A DNA stretch of 64,000 nt from Fasciola hepatica (lineage: Eukaryota; Platyhelminthes; Trematoda; Plagiorchiida; Fasciolidae), in contig CANUEZ040000164.1 in NCBI GenBank assembly GCA_948099385.1, positions 2,184,501 to 2,248,500 on the forward strand. Direction: 5' to 3'. The position numbers were made by a program, and so were the translations under genes. Shown piece after piece: positions 15,001 to 64,000 of this stretch (within the stretch, counting starts at the first letter, position 1; each line of letters opens with the position of its first letter). The notes beneath the pieces were generated by a model, which saw only the letters and a list, made by a program, of their open reading frames with translations, was not told the origin of the DNA and did no database searches.

Positions 15001-18000
15001 CTCTTCGCGTGTCGGGTGCTCGTGGTCAGGCTGGCGTTGGCATCGCTCGGATCGTGAAGGCTGTGCGCACTAGTGAACTGGATCCCAGTCAGCAGCCGTC
15101 TGTGCGCAGTTCGGTTGAATGGTTCTGTGCATGTCAACAGCACTAGACTGAAGCGTCGATGCCTGTTTGTCGTTTCTGTGTATGCCCTAACTGACAGTAA
15201 CTCTCCTGAGGCTAAAGACGAATTCTACCAGGATTTGTCTCAAGTACTCCGTAGTGTGCGCTCTATGGACATGATGGTTGTTGCTGGTGATTTCAGTACT
15301 GAAGTCGGAAGCCTAGACGAGACGGAGAGGAATATGGGAGGTTGATATTGCGTTCCAGCTGATCGAGCTGATAACGGGTACAAATTTCTCTCACAAGAAA
15401 CGACACCGACAAACCTGGCGTCCTCCTGCGACTTCACAGCGTTGGACTCAGATCGACCATATTGCTGTCGGTTACCGCCGGCGCGATCAGTTCAGGATTG
15501 CCGATCATTTTCGTCCTCGTCCGTAGACACCGATCACGCTGTTGTTCGCGCGCACTTCAGCTTGCGCCTTGTTGGTGGCCGAAGCGACGCCTCGCAGCTG
15601 CTACTGGACGATAACCAACGATCTGCTTTCCGAACAAAATTATCCACCATGTTATCGATGCAGTTAAATGCCCAGGATTCAGAAGAGCGATGGACGGAAA
15701 TCAAACAGGCTTTCAGTACGGCTGCTGATGCTACCCAAGGTCCAACAACTAGAAGTACATAGAAACGAAGGATATCTGCATCCTCATTTGCACTAGTAGA
15801 TGCTGGCAAATCGATTCCTCCGGATTCCGGATACGATGAGGCGCGGAGATGCCTTGAACGCCGACTGATTCGGAGCCTGGGGAATGATCGTGAGCAGTAG
15901 TGGATTGCGAAGTGTAGGGAGATAGAAAAACCTGCGGCGATTGACAATAGCCGCAACCTTTTCCGTCTGATTAGACAAACCGGGCCACGTAAACCAGGCG
16001 TTAGCGAATTGATCAAGGAAGCGAATGGCTCACTGATTCAAACTCAGAGGCGTCGTCTACTACGCTGGGCGGAGCATTCCGAGAAGCACTTGCATTGGCC
16101 TTTATCCTCTTCAGGTTTGTTCACTAGCGCAATGGGTATAGCTTATGTTGTAGTTACCAGTCCTCCGTCAAAAGCGGAGGTTGTTCGCGAGGTAAGCTAT
16201 CTTAAACGACATAAGGCTGTTGGATCGGATGGGTTGCCTCCATCTGTTTTCAAAGACGGTGGCCCAGCACTTGTACTGGAGTTGACAAAACTTCTCGGGT
16301 TGATATGGGAGAAGGAACAAGTTCCAAAGTGTTGGTGTGAATCGGTGGTCGTATCGATTTATAAGAAAGACGACGGGTCCTCCTATGAAAGCCACAGAGG
16401 GATATGTCTGGTTAGCATCGCATCCAAACTGCTCGCTGGTATTATTGTCCACCGCTTATCTAACCCTCGCGAACAATGTTCGCACGAGTATCAAGCTGGG
16501 TTTAGACCTGGTCGAGGTTGTATTGATCACATCTTCGGTACTTGAACACCGACCTCTTTGTAGCATTGCTCAAATACTTTGGAAGTACCATATAAGTAAT
16601 GCTGAGGTTTGACGGAGAGTCTTAGGTTTATTAGATGAAGCACTCAAAATCACCAGGTTAATAAATATGGTTGGGACGTGTTACGCATGTCCCCTGACAG
16701 GATCCCTCCTCGTGCTGTTTGCTGAGGCTGGTACCGGTTGGGAGATGAGTAAGGGTGGTCAGTCTATGACGCGGAAGAAAGGTATGAAAAGCCTAACTAG
16801 TGGACTTGGCAATGTAGGGCGTGTTAGAATTCCTGGGTGGGGTCCAAGGGATCCACCCACTCAATAGTTGGATACTTTGGGAGATATGGCTAAATGCAGC
16901 GATCAGTGGCGCTTTTGCATTCACAAACTTTCTTCATCGACTTAATTCCAATAATGTAGTTCTCCTCTCACTCATTTCATACTCTTTTCTCCCTCATTAT
17001 TTCCTTTTGAGGTTGCCGCTAGGACATAACAACCAAAGCCACCGCACGCAGTGCATGGTTACCGGTTGTCTGAACTGAACTGAACTGAACATCTGCGAAA
17101 CTGGCTGATCCTCTCAGGAGCTATTAGTATGGCACCAAGTACTTGACTCTTGATTACATTTAACCTGTTGGCATCCTTTATGGTTTATTTCAAGATTGGA
17201 GGTCGCTGGAAACCCTTGATAATGGAGTGAATCTTCATGATCATGTTATATGCCAATTCCATTGCACTAATGAATGGAAAAAATTTGGGTCGGCTAATCA
17301 AACATGTGTTTACTATATCACTGCAGGTTGTCGATTATCAGTGATAATGCAGCGAATATATGCGGCTGAGTAGGTATGTGTTTTCCACTGCACTCACGGT
17401 CGAGCAAGGAAAGAAAGTGCCGTATTTTAGGTGTTGAGGTTCTGTAGTTATATGTCGGGTCCCGCCTGTGGTTCACCTACAATAATGATTTGTTGATCTG
17501 TGATTGCGTCGTGATCGCATTGCGCAACTTCGTTTGCTACGTATCAGTGAATAGTTATAGGGGTGTGCATCGTGAAGGGATCGCGGGGACGATGCAGGCA
17601 ATCGAGCGGACGAGATAGTCTACATGAACAGTTTTCAAATCCCTCCGATGCAGGTTTGAATCACTACAGATACGAGCACCTCCGCTGAGCAATCGGGTAT
17701 ATTAGGAACTGTTTTCTCTCATCTCCGTTTGACGAAATCACTAAAATACCGGTATCTAGTTGAATACAACTTCCCGCTTGAATTTGCTACCATACGAGTC
17801 AAACCATCAAAGGATCCAAGGTGTGGCTCCAATAGTCAGTCTAAGTTAAACGATCGAACTATGCAGTGGCCTACCACCGAAAATCATGTTTGTTTACTTC
17901 TCTACCTCGCTGTTTCGGTAGTGTTTTTATTGATGTTTTTCGGTCAATACGTGCATGCAAGGATAATAAAAGAGAAGCTTATGGAAGAGAATCGGCGACC

Positions 18001-26900: not shown

Positions 26901-28162
26901 TGCTTAGCGGGCGCTCGTATTCGCGCGAGAATCAAGCTTGGTTTAGATCTGGTTGAGGTTGTGTTGACCACATCTTCACTCTATTTAGGTATATTGGAGA
27001 CTATGACTCGGTATCGCGATCAGTGAAGCTCTTGTATTCAAAAACTTTGCGGCTTGGTACTATTTACGGTTTTATTATTGGTCTTTTCACACTCATGTTT
27101 TTCCCCATTATTTTAGATTGAGATTGTCACTGAGCGATAGAAACCAGTGCATGGTGAATGGTTGTTTAGAATGCCTTTTCCATATCATGGTGCTTACCAA
27201 ATTGGTTTCGCAAATGGTAACGACATTTGTACCCTAATTTTATCCCACTGTCGTCTGTTGTTCTCCTTGACAGGGAAAATCTATGACAAGACGATGAGTA
27301 GTTTCTTATTCAACTTGAACCGTGATTTTGTGGTCGACGCAACACGCAAAGGGAACAAAATTCGATTTGCTAATCACTCAGTGAATCCGAATTGTCATGC
27401 CAAAGTAAGTGAGAGCCTGGTTGCAGCCTGTTCCTTCAGTTGTTATGGTGTCTTGACAAACCTTCATTTGCGGCTTTCGTATCCTCATCGAATGCCGAGA
27501 AAAGGCTGTTGCTGTAAAATCAGTTTAACCGTGCAGTCTGAGGAACGATGAGCGTGCTCGCGGAATGACCCGAATAGTCGTTGGCTGTGTTAGGTTAATG
27601 GCAAGCTCCGGGAGAACCGTAGCCGAACTAAAAAATGATGTACTTCAAGTCGCCCAAAGTATTGATTTGTCTGAGAAGGCGGCGCACTACTTCACACAAT
27701 GAACGATGGGATGTCTGTTTTGTACATCGCGATAAGTCTTTGGTGAATAGGGCCAAACTGTCTTAACCACGAACATTGAAGGAGGACAGACAGTGAGTCG
27801 ATACGGTTATTTTGCCCTCTTTTTCCTTTATTCTATAGCGTATGATGTTAGTCAGTTTTTTGTGAGTTAGGTGCACGTACCAATGGTCAGGTGTCTGCAA
27901 TCCGATGGTGGTTGAATGGATTAGAATGTTTGCTTACCACCTCGGAAGTCAGAGGCTCGATGCAGCGCAATCATCAGTTACTTTGGTGGTAGACAGTAAT
28001 TCACTTTCCTCCGGCTCGTTAACACACCTGACCCATTGGGACCTTTTGTGGTTCTCCATTTCAAGTACCAGGGTATGGCCTCCGGTTATCCCTAATAACA
28101 CAATGGGCCTTTGTGGCAATGGGGTATATCCGACGCCTCTGTGCTTTGAACCAAATTATCAG

Positions 28163-39747: not shown

Positions 39748-41095
39748 ACAGTAGTGGTTCTCCTGAACTTGAAGGACGCCTTCCATTCGGTAGATCAAAC
39801 AACGCGATTCAGTACTCTTCACCGGAAAGGTATGCCACAGAAGTTCATGAACCTATTTAGGTGATTGTACTCTCATATTTCTGATCGCGTAAGGGTTTAC
39901 GGTGAACTAGCCGATCGGTTCGAAACAACCAGCCGTGTTCGAAAAGGATGTCTTATGTCTCAGTTCCTGTTCAAGTTCGTCATGGACGAAGTTATGGAGA
40001 GTGCCTTGCGAGATCTCCAGAATGTGGGCGTCTATCTAGGAAATAGTAAAAAGTTGTGTGACCTAGGTTACGCCTACGACCTTATGCACTTGTTCGAATG
40101 CTCAATGTGCACTAGACAGATCTGCGAGAGCTGTAGCTCCATTCGGCATGCACTTTGTACCTTCAAAGAGTAAAGTGATATTGCAAGACTGGACGTCAAC
40201 GATTCCGAGCTTAATGCTCGATGGCGAGGTGCCGGCAACTGTCGACCACTTCACCCACCTCGGCAGCAACGTGACGACGGATCGAAGCACAGTAGTAGAG
40301 GTAAGCACACGCATATCCAAGGCTCGAGGGGCGAACGCTGGACTGAAGCACTTATGGCGCCGACCTGATTTTTCGTTGAAGTTGGAAGGTTGTGTTTATT
40401 ATGTCACAGAACGTTCAATTTTGTTGTATAGTTGTGAGACTCAGGGTGTGTTCGCTGAAGACATTCGTCGTCTTGAGGTTTTCGACCATCGATGTTTGCG
40501 CAGTATCACTAAAGTTGGGTGGAATAGCTGAGTGAGCAATGATGAGGTCAGAAATCGAGTACTGAATATGAATTCAGAGAACGTCCTGTCACAGCGTATC
40601 CAGCTTAGTAGACTTCGTTGGTTAGGACACGTGTTACGTATGGCGAACACACGTCTACTATACGGTGCCCTTTTCTCCATTCTTCCTCGGGAGTGGAAGG
40701 GACCACGTGGAGGACAACAGATGATGTGGCAGCGAGGAATGAGAAAATACACAGCAAACTTAGGGAAAGTAGGTGCCTCACCTCTTCGTGGTTGGGATGC
40801 AAAAGATCCGTCAACCAGTTGGTTGCATACGGCTGTGAACCGTGAGCAGTGGCGATCGTGTTGTCACTTTCTGTCGGATCAGAATGATTGATCGCTGCGT
40901 GTTTGTACAGTTGGACTGTGTATTCCGTGTGTTGGCTACTAGGGCATTCTTTCCTTTTCCGCTAGCGTAGGTCCACTCCCTCTCCATAATGTATATTCAT
41001 ACTTTCTAATTCAGCGAGCAACATGGTGAGAAAGGTAGTGGTAGTGGTCAGTGGGGCTTGCTTTATTGTTGAACGGTGTACGACGATGATGATGA
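39748..41095 (+). mobile_element. 5'-truncated CR1/RTE-like LINE
   Basis: Begins inside the reverse transcriptase (LKDAFHSVDQTT, then DRVRVYGELADRFETTS). The palm motif is degenerate (LGYAYDLMHLF instead of YADD). It continues with VPATVDHFTHLGSNVT, RRLEVFDHRCLRSI, LSRLRWLGHVLRMA and GGQQMMWQRGMRKY to a stop at 40,891. Two frame changes (near 40,170 and 40,530) show it is dead. The 3' end is a GAT-rich tail near 41,090. Confidence 0.85.
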
Positions 41096-47149: not shown

Positions 47150-50100
47150 ATCTAGTCTACTTTTAAAGGAATCCGCCGACGTAGCTTCAATGATCTACCC
47201 TGTTAGTTTATTTCACTATTTAGCACCTCACAGTAAACGACGGGCTCCTAATCCCTGTTCCTACATGGTCTTTAGTTAGCTGGAGTCTGTGCCCTCGCAG
47301 CCTGTCATTACCCCGAAGTCTAAACAGAGATTTCCTAGGTCCGGTAGAAGTGTCCTCCCTTTTAACAGTTTTGAACACCTTTAATAAGTTCCTTCCTAAT
47401 CTCCTGCTTTTCAACGAGAATAGGTTCACAGTCTGTAGTCTTTGCTCATAGCCTAGTCTCCGGCGGTCTCTAAACCACCTAGAGAAACGCCACTGTACTT
47501 GCTTGAGGATTTTTTTATCCAGCACCGGAGACGGACTATAGGTCTGGACGCGGTGTTCCAGTTGGGGGCGCAAGACGGCCCTGTGTATTGGTGGCAAGAC
47601 CTGCGGTCACCTCGAACTCACCGTGCGCTTCAGTCGGTAAAGTGTGCTTGAGGCTTTTTCACGGCATTCTCACACTGGATACCCGGTGGGCCCATATAGA
47701 GATTGAGCCGCCGCTCTCTCATCAATTAGGCTTTGACATTTGTTCACTTTGAGAGAGAGAGAGATCCCACGTCACGGATCACGCACGCATGCAATTCAGA
47801 TCTATCTGTACGATGCAACGTGCAACAGCTCCAAGCGGTTTGTCATCGTTGGTAAACTTGTAGCAGATGCTCTTCAGTTGATTTGCTAGGTGATTATTAA
47901 ACAGGCGAAGGGCGGGGGACTGATGACAGATCCCTGTGGTACATAATTAAGCAATCTTACCATTGTGGACAAAACTACCTCGACCCTCACCTGAAACTGC
48001 CCTCAAGTCGGTCCGCCGATGATCCATCTCCCTACCAACGAGCTCAACATAAATTCTTCCAGCCTATCCGTCAATAGCCTATGATTAACAGAGTAGAACG
48101 CCTTCCGCAAATCCAAGTAGCAATCTTCCAGTGTCTCACCTTCGTTTAGTTTTCTGGTTACTCCATCCAGGTAGAGTATTCGGTTAGTCAGGCACGAATT
48201 TCGGTGAATGAATCCGTGCCGATGAGGTGATACTGTGACACGGTAACGAACGCGCCCAGTACACAACAAAAACGACGACGACGACGACAACAACAACAAC
48301 ATCCGGGGGGGGGGGGGTTCGACACGGACACAGACGCGCAGGGCTGCCGGACGTGCTGGATGCAGAACACTTCCGTGGGGATTACTGGTACACGATGTGC
48401 AAAGGTGTGGAAGGAATGAAAAACCAATGAGCTGAAGACCGGTAAGTGTATAGGCAGGTACCAACACTTACATCAAAGAGAACGGGAAAGGCGGTCTATG
48501 TCAGTGCGTTACAATACAAACCGGTGGCTTTCCAGATGCTTAATTACAGGGTCCTGGCTTTGCCTTTCCATGACTGAGTAATACTGATGTCGGGCTTATC
48601 AATCGATAGTTCACGCGTGTTTCCCTGTCACCTTTGTGGATTGGAGTAACTGAGGAAGTAAGCCAGTCTTGGGGTGCCTCACCTTCTTCCAATGATGCGC
48701 TGAACAAAAGCATTGACGGTTTGGCTAATAGATCAGCGAATGATTTCACCATCGCTAGATGAACTCCATCAGATCCAACTGCCTTACAAGAAGAAAGGAG
48801 ACCTAGATTCTCGTAAACTTGGTTCTAGAAGAATTCGGCATCTACCAACTCCGGGATGTGCTTTTTCTATCTAATGGATTTTCCGAACGCTCCTTTGTCT
48901 GGTTTGTATACCCCATGAAAGAATCGCAGTAGATTCGTGGCCTTTCGCTTCGTGCACATCCTCGTCCCATTTTCTTCCTTAATACCCCCTTCCCCTACTG
49001 CTACTCACAAGGTGGCATTTGATTGCATTCAATTACAGTAAGCTTTAGGATTCACCTTGAAGTTCACAGAGGTCTTGATTTCGTAGCCCTGCTTGAATTC
49101 TAGTTGTATTATCGAGGCCCTACTCCCGGCCGCCCAGTACTGTAGGAAGACTGGATGCCAGACGATTCAAATTAAACTTAGTGAAGATGCAACATCGGAG
49201 TGTACAAGTATGAAGACGAGTGGGCAGGGGAGTACGGGGTACGCATTCCTGATAACCGTGAAACTGGTAGTGTGCTTCCACGGAAATTTTGTCCACACAT
49301 TTACATACTAATTACTATCAATATGAGCGTTTGCGCATACAGCCTCTTTGTTCGTTGGGTTAGCGGTGGCCCAGACACGAATAACTATCAGAAACCACAG
49401 TTGTGATTCATCTGTGGGCTCTTCAACGAAGATTATCCATTCACACTCCTCACTTTGATGTGACAACAATTCATCTTCCACTTGGCCAGACCCCAGGCTA
49501 TGGTACGTACACATTATCAAGATTTCAAGTCTCGTCGCGACTATCATTTCTATGGCTCTCACTTCCGATGGTATCATGGGGGTCTCCTGCGGATACGAAA
49601 ACACCATCTCCTGTCATCCCTATCAACGCGATGGGCTGTGTATTATTTCCGACACAGCACATTAATGTCTTCAGCTGGCTGCAGCCATGTTTCAGTGACA
49701 GCTATGAAATCCAGGCTCTCTGTCCTAGCCTGTAGTTCCGGCCACTTTTTCCCCACACTTGCTGCGTCCGAGTAGACCATGTGTAACCCCACCCTACCTT
49801 GACTTTCTCTTGGCTGATCAAGGAGGGTCTTGTTTCTGGTGTATCACACCCGAGGAAACTGATCGTTTTTTCACACAACGGTATTGGTAATCTTATCGCG
49901 TTTATTCAGTTTTTCTTCACTCGCCACTCTAGCAGCCTGCAGCTTGCTCGCCACCAGAGGATCATGTGTCACTGTCTGCGTTGTCATGTTCCACGTGTCT
50001 GCCGCATCAATTTGTCTATCAGCGACCGCCTTCGTAGCCTTAGCTTCTGACACTGGTTGGTGGGTCCTCTGGATTTTCATTAAGGTGACGTCTTCAGCCC

Positions 50101-61435: not shown

Positions 61436-61499
<64 letters not shown>
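61436..61499. repeat. (TA)n microsatellite
   Basis: About 32 TA units directly abutting the left end of hammerhead-element copy 2. Confidence 0.95.
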
Positions 61500-61500
<1 letters not shown>

Positions 61501-61805
61501 TAATTACCATCAATATGAGAGCTTGCACATGCAGCCTCGTTGTTCGTTGGGTCAGCAGTGACCCAGACACGAATAACTATCATAAATCACAATTGTGATT
61601 CATTTTTGGGCTCTTCAATGAAGAGTATCCATTCACACTCCAGACAATTCAAATTAGATCCTAGTGAACATATATCATCGGAGTGTACAAGTATGAAGAC
61701 GAGTGGGCAGAGGAGTACTGGGTACGCATACCTGATGAGCGGCAACAACCGCGAAACCGGTAGTGTGCTTCCGGGGGAGTTTTGTCCAAACGTTTACATA
61801 CTAAC
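61499..61805 (+). repeat. hammerhead-bearing element, copy 2
   Basis: Block order B (61,499-61,641, starting ACTAATTACCATCAATATGA) then A (61,642-61,805, ending TTTACATACTAACC), the reverse of copy 1 at 49,160. The junction CACTCC-AGACAATTC inside this copy is exactly the pair of ends seen in copy 1. Total about 300 bp. Confidence 0.85.
61726..61768 (+). ncRNA. hammerhead ribozyme, type I, minimal helix III
   Basis: Self-cleaving RNA motif. Helix I pairs GCATAC (61,726-61,731) with GTGTGC (61,763-61,768), six pairs with one G-U. The core box CTGATGA is at 61,732-61,738. Helix II is GCGG/CCGC (61,739-742 with 61,749-752) closed by a CAACAA loop. GAAA is at 61,753-61,756. Helix III is the self-complementary ACCGGT (61,756-61,761), too short to close on itself. 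The cleavage triplet is GTA, so scission is predicted after 61,762. All invariant core bases are present. The palindromic helix III fits ribozymes known to work as dimers in tandem RNAs, as in Penelope-like elements and retrozymes. Confidence 0.85.
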
Positions 61806-61849
61806 CAACAAGTGAACTCCGTGAGAATTTGCAGAAAGCGCTCTCCAAG

Positions 61850-61954
<105 letters not shown>

Positions 61955-61960
61955 TCACGG

Positions 61961-64000
61961 TATTCACATGTTGGTTCCAGGTTTCCTTGTGGATGGGACG
62001 AACCAGGGGACCGCGACCGAGTGATCTTGGTCCCGAAAGAATGTTATTGAGTCGGGTATATTTTACAAGAAAGATTCTGAAGGGAAGTGACAAACAACAG
62101 TGTGAATTACCCCACGGCCAGTATTGTATTATTTCTGATGACTACACCTATCCTATCCGTTTGCGTTGCTCCATAAATCCAGCCAAGGAGTGGATGTATG
62201 AGTAATGTCGTAAGACCCACATAGATTGTGTTTTCACTTGATCGTCCCGTTCCAGTTCGAACGCAAAAATGTTTTCCTACTGCAGCTACCGGGACGGATC
62301 AAATCACGAAGGTTAAGCATAACGGTCAATACCAAATTTTCATAGCTCACAGATTATTACCAATTATGATAGACCGACTTGCCAATCTTGATCATGATCA
62401 AATAGATAGGACTCAAACGGTGTTCTCTTTCTGTCGGCATTCTTCATGGAAATGAGTTCGAAATCTGGTTCAAACCTAGATTTGAGTTCGTGAAATCAAT
62501 CTCGTCAAATTTGCCCCCGTCACTTTTGTTCTGGATTAAGCAATATTCGCCCGCAAGAATATTTACATTGGGAATTGTTTACACAGGATGCTTTATCACA
62601 CTAGATCAGAACCAACCCCAACGAGTATGGGGATGGTAATGTTGAGAATGAGGATGATAATGATGTACGGGGGCTTGAATTTCTACCACATTCTCAGCTG
62701 CGGTCTTGGAATGTTCTCTTCATTTTAATCACCACTCGTGCGTGAGTGGTTTGCCCGCGTCACACAGAAAAATCACCGACTGTTCAACGAGCCCCAACCG
62801 GAAATAAAAAAACACAGCAGCCAAAGGCGCGGAAGATGAGGACTTATCTGTTTCAACAGATAAAGCTCGTGCAATAAGTGTGAACTGAGCAACAAAGTAT
62901 GCTAGTATCGAACATTATAAGCGTGTCGTTCTCGGTGCAGAGAAGTTATTTACCGAAGCCCAGTGATGGAGTGACTCCAGACTCGGACAAACTCATGACC
63001 ATCTCAGGTAATACGAGAGATCTTCCCCTCGTGTGAATTACAAATATCTTCCCGATAGAAATCAGCTTTCCAAAAGTGTTCTTATTCTTTAATCTATTCA
63101 GACTGTTTTTCATCTTGAATGACACAGTAATAATAACAACGACGTTATTCAGTTTTTCACAGGAAATAGCACTTGTTTAATTATTGCAACTTTTACTAAC
63201 CTGCTGTCAACGTTAAACTATCATTGTTATTTCACTTTTCTGATCACCATCGTACAGCTGTCAGTCAAATGACGTCTATACTACTTATTGCCTTCAAATA
63301 AATATGAACATATATAATCTTTTGAACGTGTCTTTGTTTTCCTTGTTTGAGTTACCTAATACAAAAACTAATGAATTAAGTGTGAATGAATTATGTGTGC
63401 GAATTATGTGTGCAATGAGATATTGTGACCTTTATTGTGTTCAGCTTATTGACAATCAGTGTGATGAGGAAATATTGTTACGAAATTCTACACCAGTCAT
63501 TATTTAGCGTCGCACAAACCAAGATGAAAAGGGGTGTTCACGAATCTTTATTTGCAAAAAAAACATTTTTGGAATTATAGTGCGACAGATTCGAGAACTC
63601 ACAGGCCGCTTCCATGACTACGGGAGCAACTGTAATCTGATTACTGAATTGAGAACTTATCGAAGATACCCAGTACAACATTCAGGACACGAAGGCAGCG
63701 AACTAACTTGTTTTCGGTAATTCCAACCTCTGCCTAAGATGGTTACAAAATTCAGGTGCTTGAGTGTTTTACAAGTCACTTGAACGAGATGATTAATCCG
63801 GGGGTGTTATCTGCCAAAGTGTGTGAAAGATATAAAAGGCAAAATTACCACAAAAATTGATATAGAACTAATGATCGAGACTGCTGAGACAGGCGAAAAA
63901 TGTAGTTTTTTTATAACACCGGAACAAACCCTCAGTGAGGAGAAAAGTCCCAATCATTTCGGGTGATTCGTTTGATTCTCACTAATCCGAGTAAAGCAGA
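61961..64000. other. right flank without supported gene
   Basis: An open frame at 61,987-62,205 includes [20 protein letters not shown] and a Cys/Trp-containing end, which might be a transposon or exon fragment but matches nothing I recognise. The remainder is AT-rich with no motif. Confidence 0.3.

Follow-up and report, generated by a model that had tools for sequence, protein, structure and literature searches.

A 301-bp hammerhead satellite of Fasciola hepatica and its probable reverse transcription into (TA)n microsatellites

How do two copies of one small genomic element come to begin and end at different points of the same unit? The question is raised by a stretch of 64,000 nucleotides from the trematode Fasciola hepatica (hereafter the window; contig CANUEZ040000164.1, positions 2,184,501 to 2,248,500), in which an element of about 300 bp occurs twice, as copy 1 and copy 2, the latter with the sequence of a hammerhead ribozyme. 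An earlier note, made from the letters of the window alone, regarded the two as circular permutations of one unit, released singly from a tandem array or a circular RNA, and placed them in a retrozyme-like or Penelope-terminal-repeat-like family. From the analysis presented here, which extended to the assembly that contains the window (1.4998 Gb in 656 contigs), the element emerges as the unit of a 301-bp hammerhead satellite, the RNA of which is predicted to cut itself as a dimer, is likely to be circular or multimeric, and most probably served as the template for reverse transcription into (TA)n microsatellites, primed at two internal positions, +55 and +213. Unit positions are counted throughout from +1 = 61763, the first nucleotide 3′ of the predicted cleavage site, and the coordinates of the features are collected in Table 1.

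The hammerhead of copy 2 is complete, with the core, pairings and coordinates that had been claimed for it. Helix I consists of 6 bp between 61726-61731 and 61763-61768, to which an outer helix adds a further 4 bp (61718-61721 with 61771-61774); the core CTGATGA occupies 61732-61738 and GAA 61753-61755, and helix II is formed by 61739-61742 and 61749-61752. In a structural scan the motif matched once in the window, as against no match in 60 windows generated from a first-order Markov model. The match to the Rfam family Hammerhead_HH9 reaches 32.3 bits (E 2.9e-6 in 601 bases), which is below the gathering score of 52, such that a default Rfam scan of the window lists nothing; copy 1 gave no Rfam hammerhead match. 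Since helix III, ACCGGT, is a palindrome without a loop, its proper formation is impossible in a single unit but possible with two. The dimer type that had been assigned to this helix is borne out by the arrays described below, in which 91 of the 101 distinct units have a self-complementary helix III.

That the two copies are circular permutations of one unit is likewise upheld. Against the closed 301-bp unit of copy 2, copy 1 aligns along a single path with a score of 386, as compared with only 206 against linear copy 2; the gaps in this alignment are just 1 and 10 nt, with 34 substitutions in 290 aligned positions, and the divergence is equal in both blocks (16/143 and 18/154). Copy 2 is redundant at its ends by 7 nt (ATACTAA), copy 1 by 2 nt (CC). 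When set against the most frequent array unit, the two copies have six states in common, which hint at an older or separate source subfamily. It may also be recorded that the right (TA)50 tract of copy 2 stands between the arms of a 26-bp inverted repeat (61803-61828 and 61951-61976, 23/26 identical).

Table 1. Positions, within the window, of the two copies of the unit, of their ribozyme sequences and of the surrounding tracts
Feature	Position	Strand	Remarks
Copy 1	49158..49449	+	301-bp unit, permuted, +179 to +180; 34/290 positions differ from copy 2; outside (TA)n
Remnant hammerhead of copy 1	49243..49275	+	10 nt of helix II missing
Left (TA)n tract	61437..61499		abuts the left end of copy 2 directly
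Copy 2	61499..61804	+	one 301-bp unit with 5-7 nt of terminal redundancy, permuted, unit +36/38 to +41/42
Type I hammerhead of copy 2	61718..61774	+	outer and inner helix I, core, helix II, helix III
Helix III	61756..61761	+	ACCGGT, loopless palindrome; full pairing predicted only between two units
Predicted cleavage site	61762..61763	+	between A17 (61762) and G1.1 (61763); array units mostly C17
Filler	61805..61851		47 bp, non-unit, between copy 2 and right (TA)n; holds most of one inverted-repeat arm
Right (TA)n tract	61852..61952		

A tandem source of the kind that the earlier note supposed does exist in the genome. With copy 2 as query, 3709 candidate places were returned, of which 40 were scored; 38 of the 42 near-full-length rows lie on contigs with tandem arrays, and the remaining four are on C25, C47 and C58 and in the window itself. 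Eleven contigs, including C246 and the end of C129, supplied arrays of 301-bp period for closer study, and 34 of the 36 array loci were cut into 328 units (overlaps between loci included), 101 of them distinct. In other words, the 301-bp unit forms a satellite, arranged in large tandem arrays in which the hammerhead sequence is intact. The length is exactly 301 bp in 99 of the distinct units, and 88 have a fully paired hammerhead sequence (76 with ACCGGT and C17, 11 with ATCGGT and C17 and one with T17), the remainder being three units with a damaged helix I or II and ten without a match to the motif. Neighbouring units differ at a mean of 2.75 positions, and 22 of 292 neighbours are identical. 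Further copies appear in database searches in the guise of predicted proteins: one such protein, P0007, comes from a further copy and spans the start/end junction of copy 2 uninterrupted, with 58 of 67 residues identical, and another, P0008 (16 of 19 residues, E 0.02), is probably a copy around the ribozyme only. As to relatives elsewhere, a 35-mer had no match in viral contigs, the hammerhead pattern had none in viral and genome contigs, and P0007 had no confirmed relatives in viral contigs.

Beyond the arrays, hundreds of copies of the unit sit inside (TA)n microsatellites. Genome-wide, the sense strand runs with its 3′ end at +55 into (TA)n in 249 forward matches and 477 reverse rows, where a backwards-pattern control gave 0 and 0; owing to a variable gap, the reverse rows list many places twice, and the figure is to be read as at least 249 places. 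The corresponding counts at +213 are 87 and 88, again with 0 and 0 in the control. The +55 junction is directional, in that its mirror image, (TA)n running into the downstream letters, was found 11 + 5 = 16 times as against the 249 or more places in the sense direction, with the proviso that the two patterns are unequal in stringency, the mirror fixing fewer unit letters. Edges of (TA)n tracts (within 6 nt) make up 0.16% of the positions of the window. Nine of the first 32 listed +213 places lie within 0.6 kb of a +55 place, in all nine cases on opposite strands, which is the arrangement that a single insertion with an outward-facing junction at each end would show.

The anatomy of the dispersed copies was followed in 44 fetched loci: 20 with a +55 junction (set A, chosen by hand near the top of the +55 list, in the order listed and with the sequence unseen), 20 with a +213 junction (set B, from the first 32 +213 places after exclusion of the nine within 0.6 kb of a +55 place, which biases this set against +55 partners, and of three others) and four, L039-L042, which are near-full-length matches outside the arrays and were taken regardless of their ends. 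The total length of insertion ranges from 43 to 692 bp, such that the dispersed copies are not in general excised single units, and the idea that each window copy represents one exact unit, copied from a circle, was dropped as a general rule. The scatter of breakpoints around the unit, which the earlier note had proposed to look for, holds for the sense 5′ ends but not for the sense 3′ ends, which recur at +55 and +213; the single fixed pair of ends, common to all copies, that the earlier note had named as its refutation was not seen. The main run crosses the hammerhead cleavage site in 31 of the 44 loci and is longer than one unit (301 bp) in 12, and for these the template could not have been a linear monomer cut at that site. 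The right end was scored as (TA)n in 43 of the 44, mostly through selection, and the left end in 28; in L039-L042 (TA)n is found on both sides in all four. For the permutation of the copies, target-primed starts within an endless template are a better explanation than excision.

In 15 of the 44 loci the insertion starts with an inverted segment. The outer end of this segment, for which no selection was made, lies at +55/58 or +208/213 in 12 of the 15 (7/7 in the first set, 4/7 in the second and 1/1 among L039-L042). Inverted double-primed inserts are also produced by LINE-1 in twin priming, where the inversion begins within the poly(A)-primed copy; unlike in LINE-1, both outer ends here use two shared internal AU-rich sites. 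The asymmetry of the junctions, together with the occurrence of the same two AU-rich words at both outer ends, argues for priming on RNA and not for DNA end-joining. Some loci are more intricate still: L055 (inverted/direct/inverted/direct) and L061 (inverted/inverted/direct) have more than two segments and look as if several template switches occurred, and L060 has an extra short inverted piece, starting near +213, which was seen by eye and falls under the mapping threshold.

A cycle may be proposed in which these features have a place. Transcripts of the arrays would be cut into units by dimeric hammerheads, helix III needing two units, and the units would then be ligated into circles, each of which, when alone and lacking a partner for helix III, would stay closed. 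A Penelope-like enzyme would cut (TA)n DNA, and the TATA 3′ end so exposed could pair with AUAU in the RNA, within AAUAU at +55 or AUAUAA at +213, and start the synthesis of complementary DNA (cDNA), which would run around the circle or along the multimer and stop at a variable point. In about one third of cases the other broken end, with its identical TATA, would prime a second cDNA and give rise to the inverted segment. A more specific version, which we offer tentatively, is that when a (TA)n tract breaks, both of its ends pair with an AUAU word in the satellite's own RNA circle, copy anything from a fraction of it to several turns, and join back to back. Lengths of one full turn and a few nucleotides are seen in L063 (306), L065 (307) and copies 1 and 2; synthesis could sometimes stop on meeting the primer, although these four cases were noticed post hoc.

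Other explanations have to be weighed against this cycle. Satellite DNA, whether from the arrays or from extrachromosomal circles, might have been captured at (TA)n breaks by microhomology-mediated repair, without RNA or reverse transcriptase. A tandem DNA source is indeed present, breaks in (TA)n with AT microhomology at both ends suit end-joining, and inverted segments can come from template switching during repair. Microhomology repair is blind to the direction of an RNA, yet the +55 junction outnumbers its mirror (at least 249 places against 16), and the mirror junctions in the 44 loci amount to none with strict patterns or one with relaxed patterns; we regard such capture as unlikely. It is also possible, if somewhat doubtful, that the two window copies are chance remnants left by longer dispersed insertions and that their unit-length permutation is coincidental. 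The spread of lengths in the 44 loci, among which near-unit length is not the rule, agrees with such an origin, and the occurrence of two further loci of one turn and a few nucleotides, L063 and L065, speaks against it, albeit as a post hoc observation.

The nature of the template is a more finely balanced matter, in that the dispersed copies may have been made from long uncleaved array transcripts and not from ribozyme-made circles, with the hammerhead as a passenger or in the service of some other step; we take this possibility seriously without favouring it. The long runs L077, L068 and L047 differ between their passes in the manner of array neighbours, the hammerhead columns are at least as variable as the rest of the array unit, and the hammerhead of a Penelope element is dispensable for insertion in vitro (PMC11167929). 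Intact hammerheads in 88 of the 101 distinct array units tell in the other direction, as does L048, a run of 692 bp or 2.3 turns, the passes of which are identical across 391 nt and all carry the same five non-modal bases. A circle would produce such a pattern; 5% of array stretches of equal length match this uniformity. In this one case, L048, the evidence leans towards a circle.

Several observations weigh against the proposal that circular or multimeric hammerhead RNA was reverse-transcribed from (TA)n ends, and they concern the choice of loci, the window copies, the template and the ribozyme. Because 40 of the 44 loci were chosen by their 3′ junction, those ends are no independent evidence; the genome-wide mirror count covers +55 only, and with relaxed patterns the 44 loci contain no mirror junction at +55 and one (L065) at +213. 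The left end is not scored as (TA)n in 16 of the 44 loci, and 3 of the 15 inverted segments end elsewhere (+145, +142 and +69). Copy 1 lies outside (TA)n, with its ends (+179/180) at neither +55 nor +213, while the end of copy 2 is at +41/42, with 47 bp of filler separating it from the right (TA)n tract. Target-site duplications, which in metazoan retrozymes are large when present, were not found above chance beside either copy, such a duplication being undetectable in principle within (TA)n targets. The window copies are, in short, atypical, and copy 1 is the older. As regards the template, the passes differ at 3/156 positions in L077, 2/73 in L068, 1/53 in L047, 4/63 in L070 and 4/161 in L040, which is to say like array neighbours or more, so that a circle is not proven; the comparison leaves out L063, L065 and L081, the passes of which are out of register, and L042, which is too decayed.

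With respect to the ribozyme, the hammerhead columns of the array unit vary by 1.1%, no lower than the 0.8% found elsewhere in the unit, and selection on the ribozyme is thus not shown. The folding of monomer and dimer, which the earlier note had suggested as a check, gave a divided answer: helix III is full only between two units, as had been foreseen, but the energies favour inactive hairpins over the double hammerhead. In nearest-neighbour folding, computed without tertiary contacts, the one-unit hammerhead, which lacks helix III, reaches −16.2 kcal/mol and an inactive hairpin that is predicted to bury the cleavage site −23.4 kcal/mol; the double hammerhead comes to −42.1 kcal/mol, two such hairpins to −46.8 and the most stable co-fold to −49.1. 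Nor do the changes between copies 1 and 2 give any support from covariation, since they fail to preserve pairing: 4 pairs are kept by compensatory changes and 9 are broken, where the null means are 8.0 and 11.8.

The unit RNA as a whole is predicted to be highly structured. The closed 301-nt RNA of copy 2 has a circular fold of −98.6 kcal/mol (z −6.1, 0/200 shuffles as low) and that of the array unit is similarly exceptional (z −5.3, 0/200), while the decayed copy 1 is unexceptional (z −0.8, 42/200); the predicted paired fraction is 62-64%. The unit has a guanine-plus-cytosine (GC) content of 44%, no long terminal repeat (LTR) and no coding region, the longest open frame of the closed unit being one of 126 codons that shifts frame every turn.

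A further peculiarity of the dispersed copies is found at H17, the nucleotide 5′ of the cleavage site. This is A or T in 7 of 29 dispersed ribozymes (L041, L042, L044, L050, L057 and copies 1 and 2) and C in 104 of 105 array ribozymes, and it varies between passes inside L041 and inside L042. In aligned passes it is other than C in 5 of 33, as compared with 228 mismatches in 7207 over all columns, in a comparison that was noticed post hoc. The non-C nucleotide is possibly a misreading at the ligation junction, the mark of an older subfamily or the result of differing source units.

The retrozyme-like half of the earlier family label can be retained. What was found is a type I hammerhead in a unit of 150-450 bp, a tandem arrangement (in arrays elsewhere in the genome, both window copies being single), GC below 50% without LTR or coding sequence, and a self-paired RNA. 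The metazoan non-LTR retrozymes, in so far as the available text of PMC7229834 describes them, are alike in their type I hammerhead, their unit of 170-400 nt (here 301), their tandem arrays, their GC below 50% (here 44%), their lack of evident coding capacity and their highly self-paired circular fold, and also in helix III, for which that paper describes a weak, dimer-type form in amphibians. In contrast to what is set out in those parts of that paper, many copies here are of less than unit length and are embedded in (TA)n; two sites recur as their starting points, and double priming is frequent. Shorter cDNAs are allowed for in the case of plant retrozymes, according to the portions of PMC4918200 available. 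Among trematodes, the SMalpha/W-elements of Schistosoma are satellite-like repeats that likewise have type I hammerheads and copies outside the main arrays (PMC8490949, in the accessible sections). The schistosome repeats are reported, in the same portions of PMC4918200, with a transfer RNA (tRNA) sequence; in the Fasciola unit no tRNA sequence was detected by ARAGORN or Rfam, and the best matches to RNA polymerase III A and B boxes carry 2 mismatches and are no better than those in shuffles. The unit is, in this regard, unlike a tRNA-linked short interspersed element of the SMalpha type.

The Penelope half of the label has fared less well, in that a Penelope terminal repeat is so far unsupported: no Penelope-type domain pair turned up when 10 of the window's 52 listed open reading frames were scanned against Pfam. 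Nor does the 301-bp unit, which is too short and has chance frames only, contain the telomerase-like reverse transcriptase with GIY-YIG of a Penelope element. Penelope elements have nonetheless been proposed as the movers of metazoan retrozymes, in the available part of PMC7229834, and purified Penelope protein cuts AT-rich DNA in vitro, extends both strands and starts reverse transcription internally (PMC11167929). This element, Poseidon PAc of Anolis, resembles the present case in its AT-rich target, the extension of both target strands, reverse transcription that begins internally, genomic copies with ends at these start sites and a hammerhead in its RNA (PMC11167929). It differs in being autonomous and protein-coding, which the 301-bp unit is not, and in that its start site is non-homologous to the cut DNA, whereas the AUAU sites here match the (TA)n target. 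Mammalian pseudogenes derived from circular RNA offer another parallel, being genomic insertions thought to come from circular RNAs, although these are back-splice circles of genes, and the accessible portion of PMC5345220 describes neither a ribozyme nor (TA)n targeting. In a limited search of the open literature, as far as its texts were accessible, no report of permuted retrozymes inserted in (TA)n was found.

The insertion route and the mover of metazoan retrozymes are treated as an open question in the accessible literature, and it is here that the fluke genome may be of use. One genome holds hundreds of fossil insertions in which start sites, stop sites, target and strand are all legible, and these yield direct predictions for a test of the enzyme, namely a (TA)n target, starts at +55 and +213, and priming from each of the two broken ends. 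They would also join the satellite arrays, the hammerhead RNAs and the dispersed copies in one cycle.

Apart from the two copies, the window contains frames that by eye resemble broken non-LTR retrotransposons at 15346-16545, 40067-40891 and 48003-48467. Among the ten scanned reading frames, RVT_1 was seen only in 15901-16545, under the Pfam cut-off; this reverse transcriptase fragment has six database relatives at E 0.001 or better, of which one, from the fluke Dicrocoelium dendriticum, is 51% identical. At 27141-27551 there is a SET-domain exon of an EZH2-like histone methyltransferase, with a match to EZH2.
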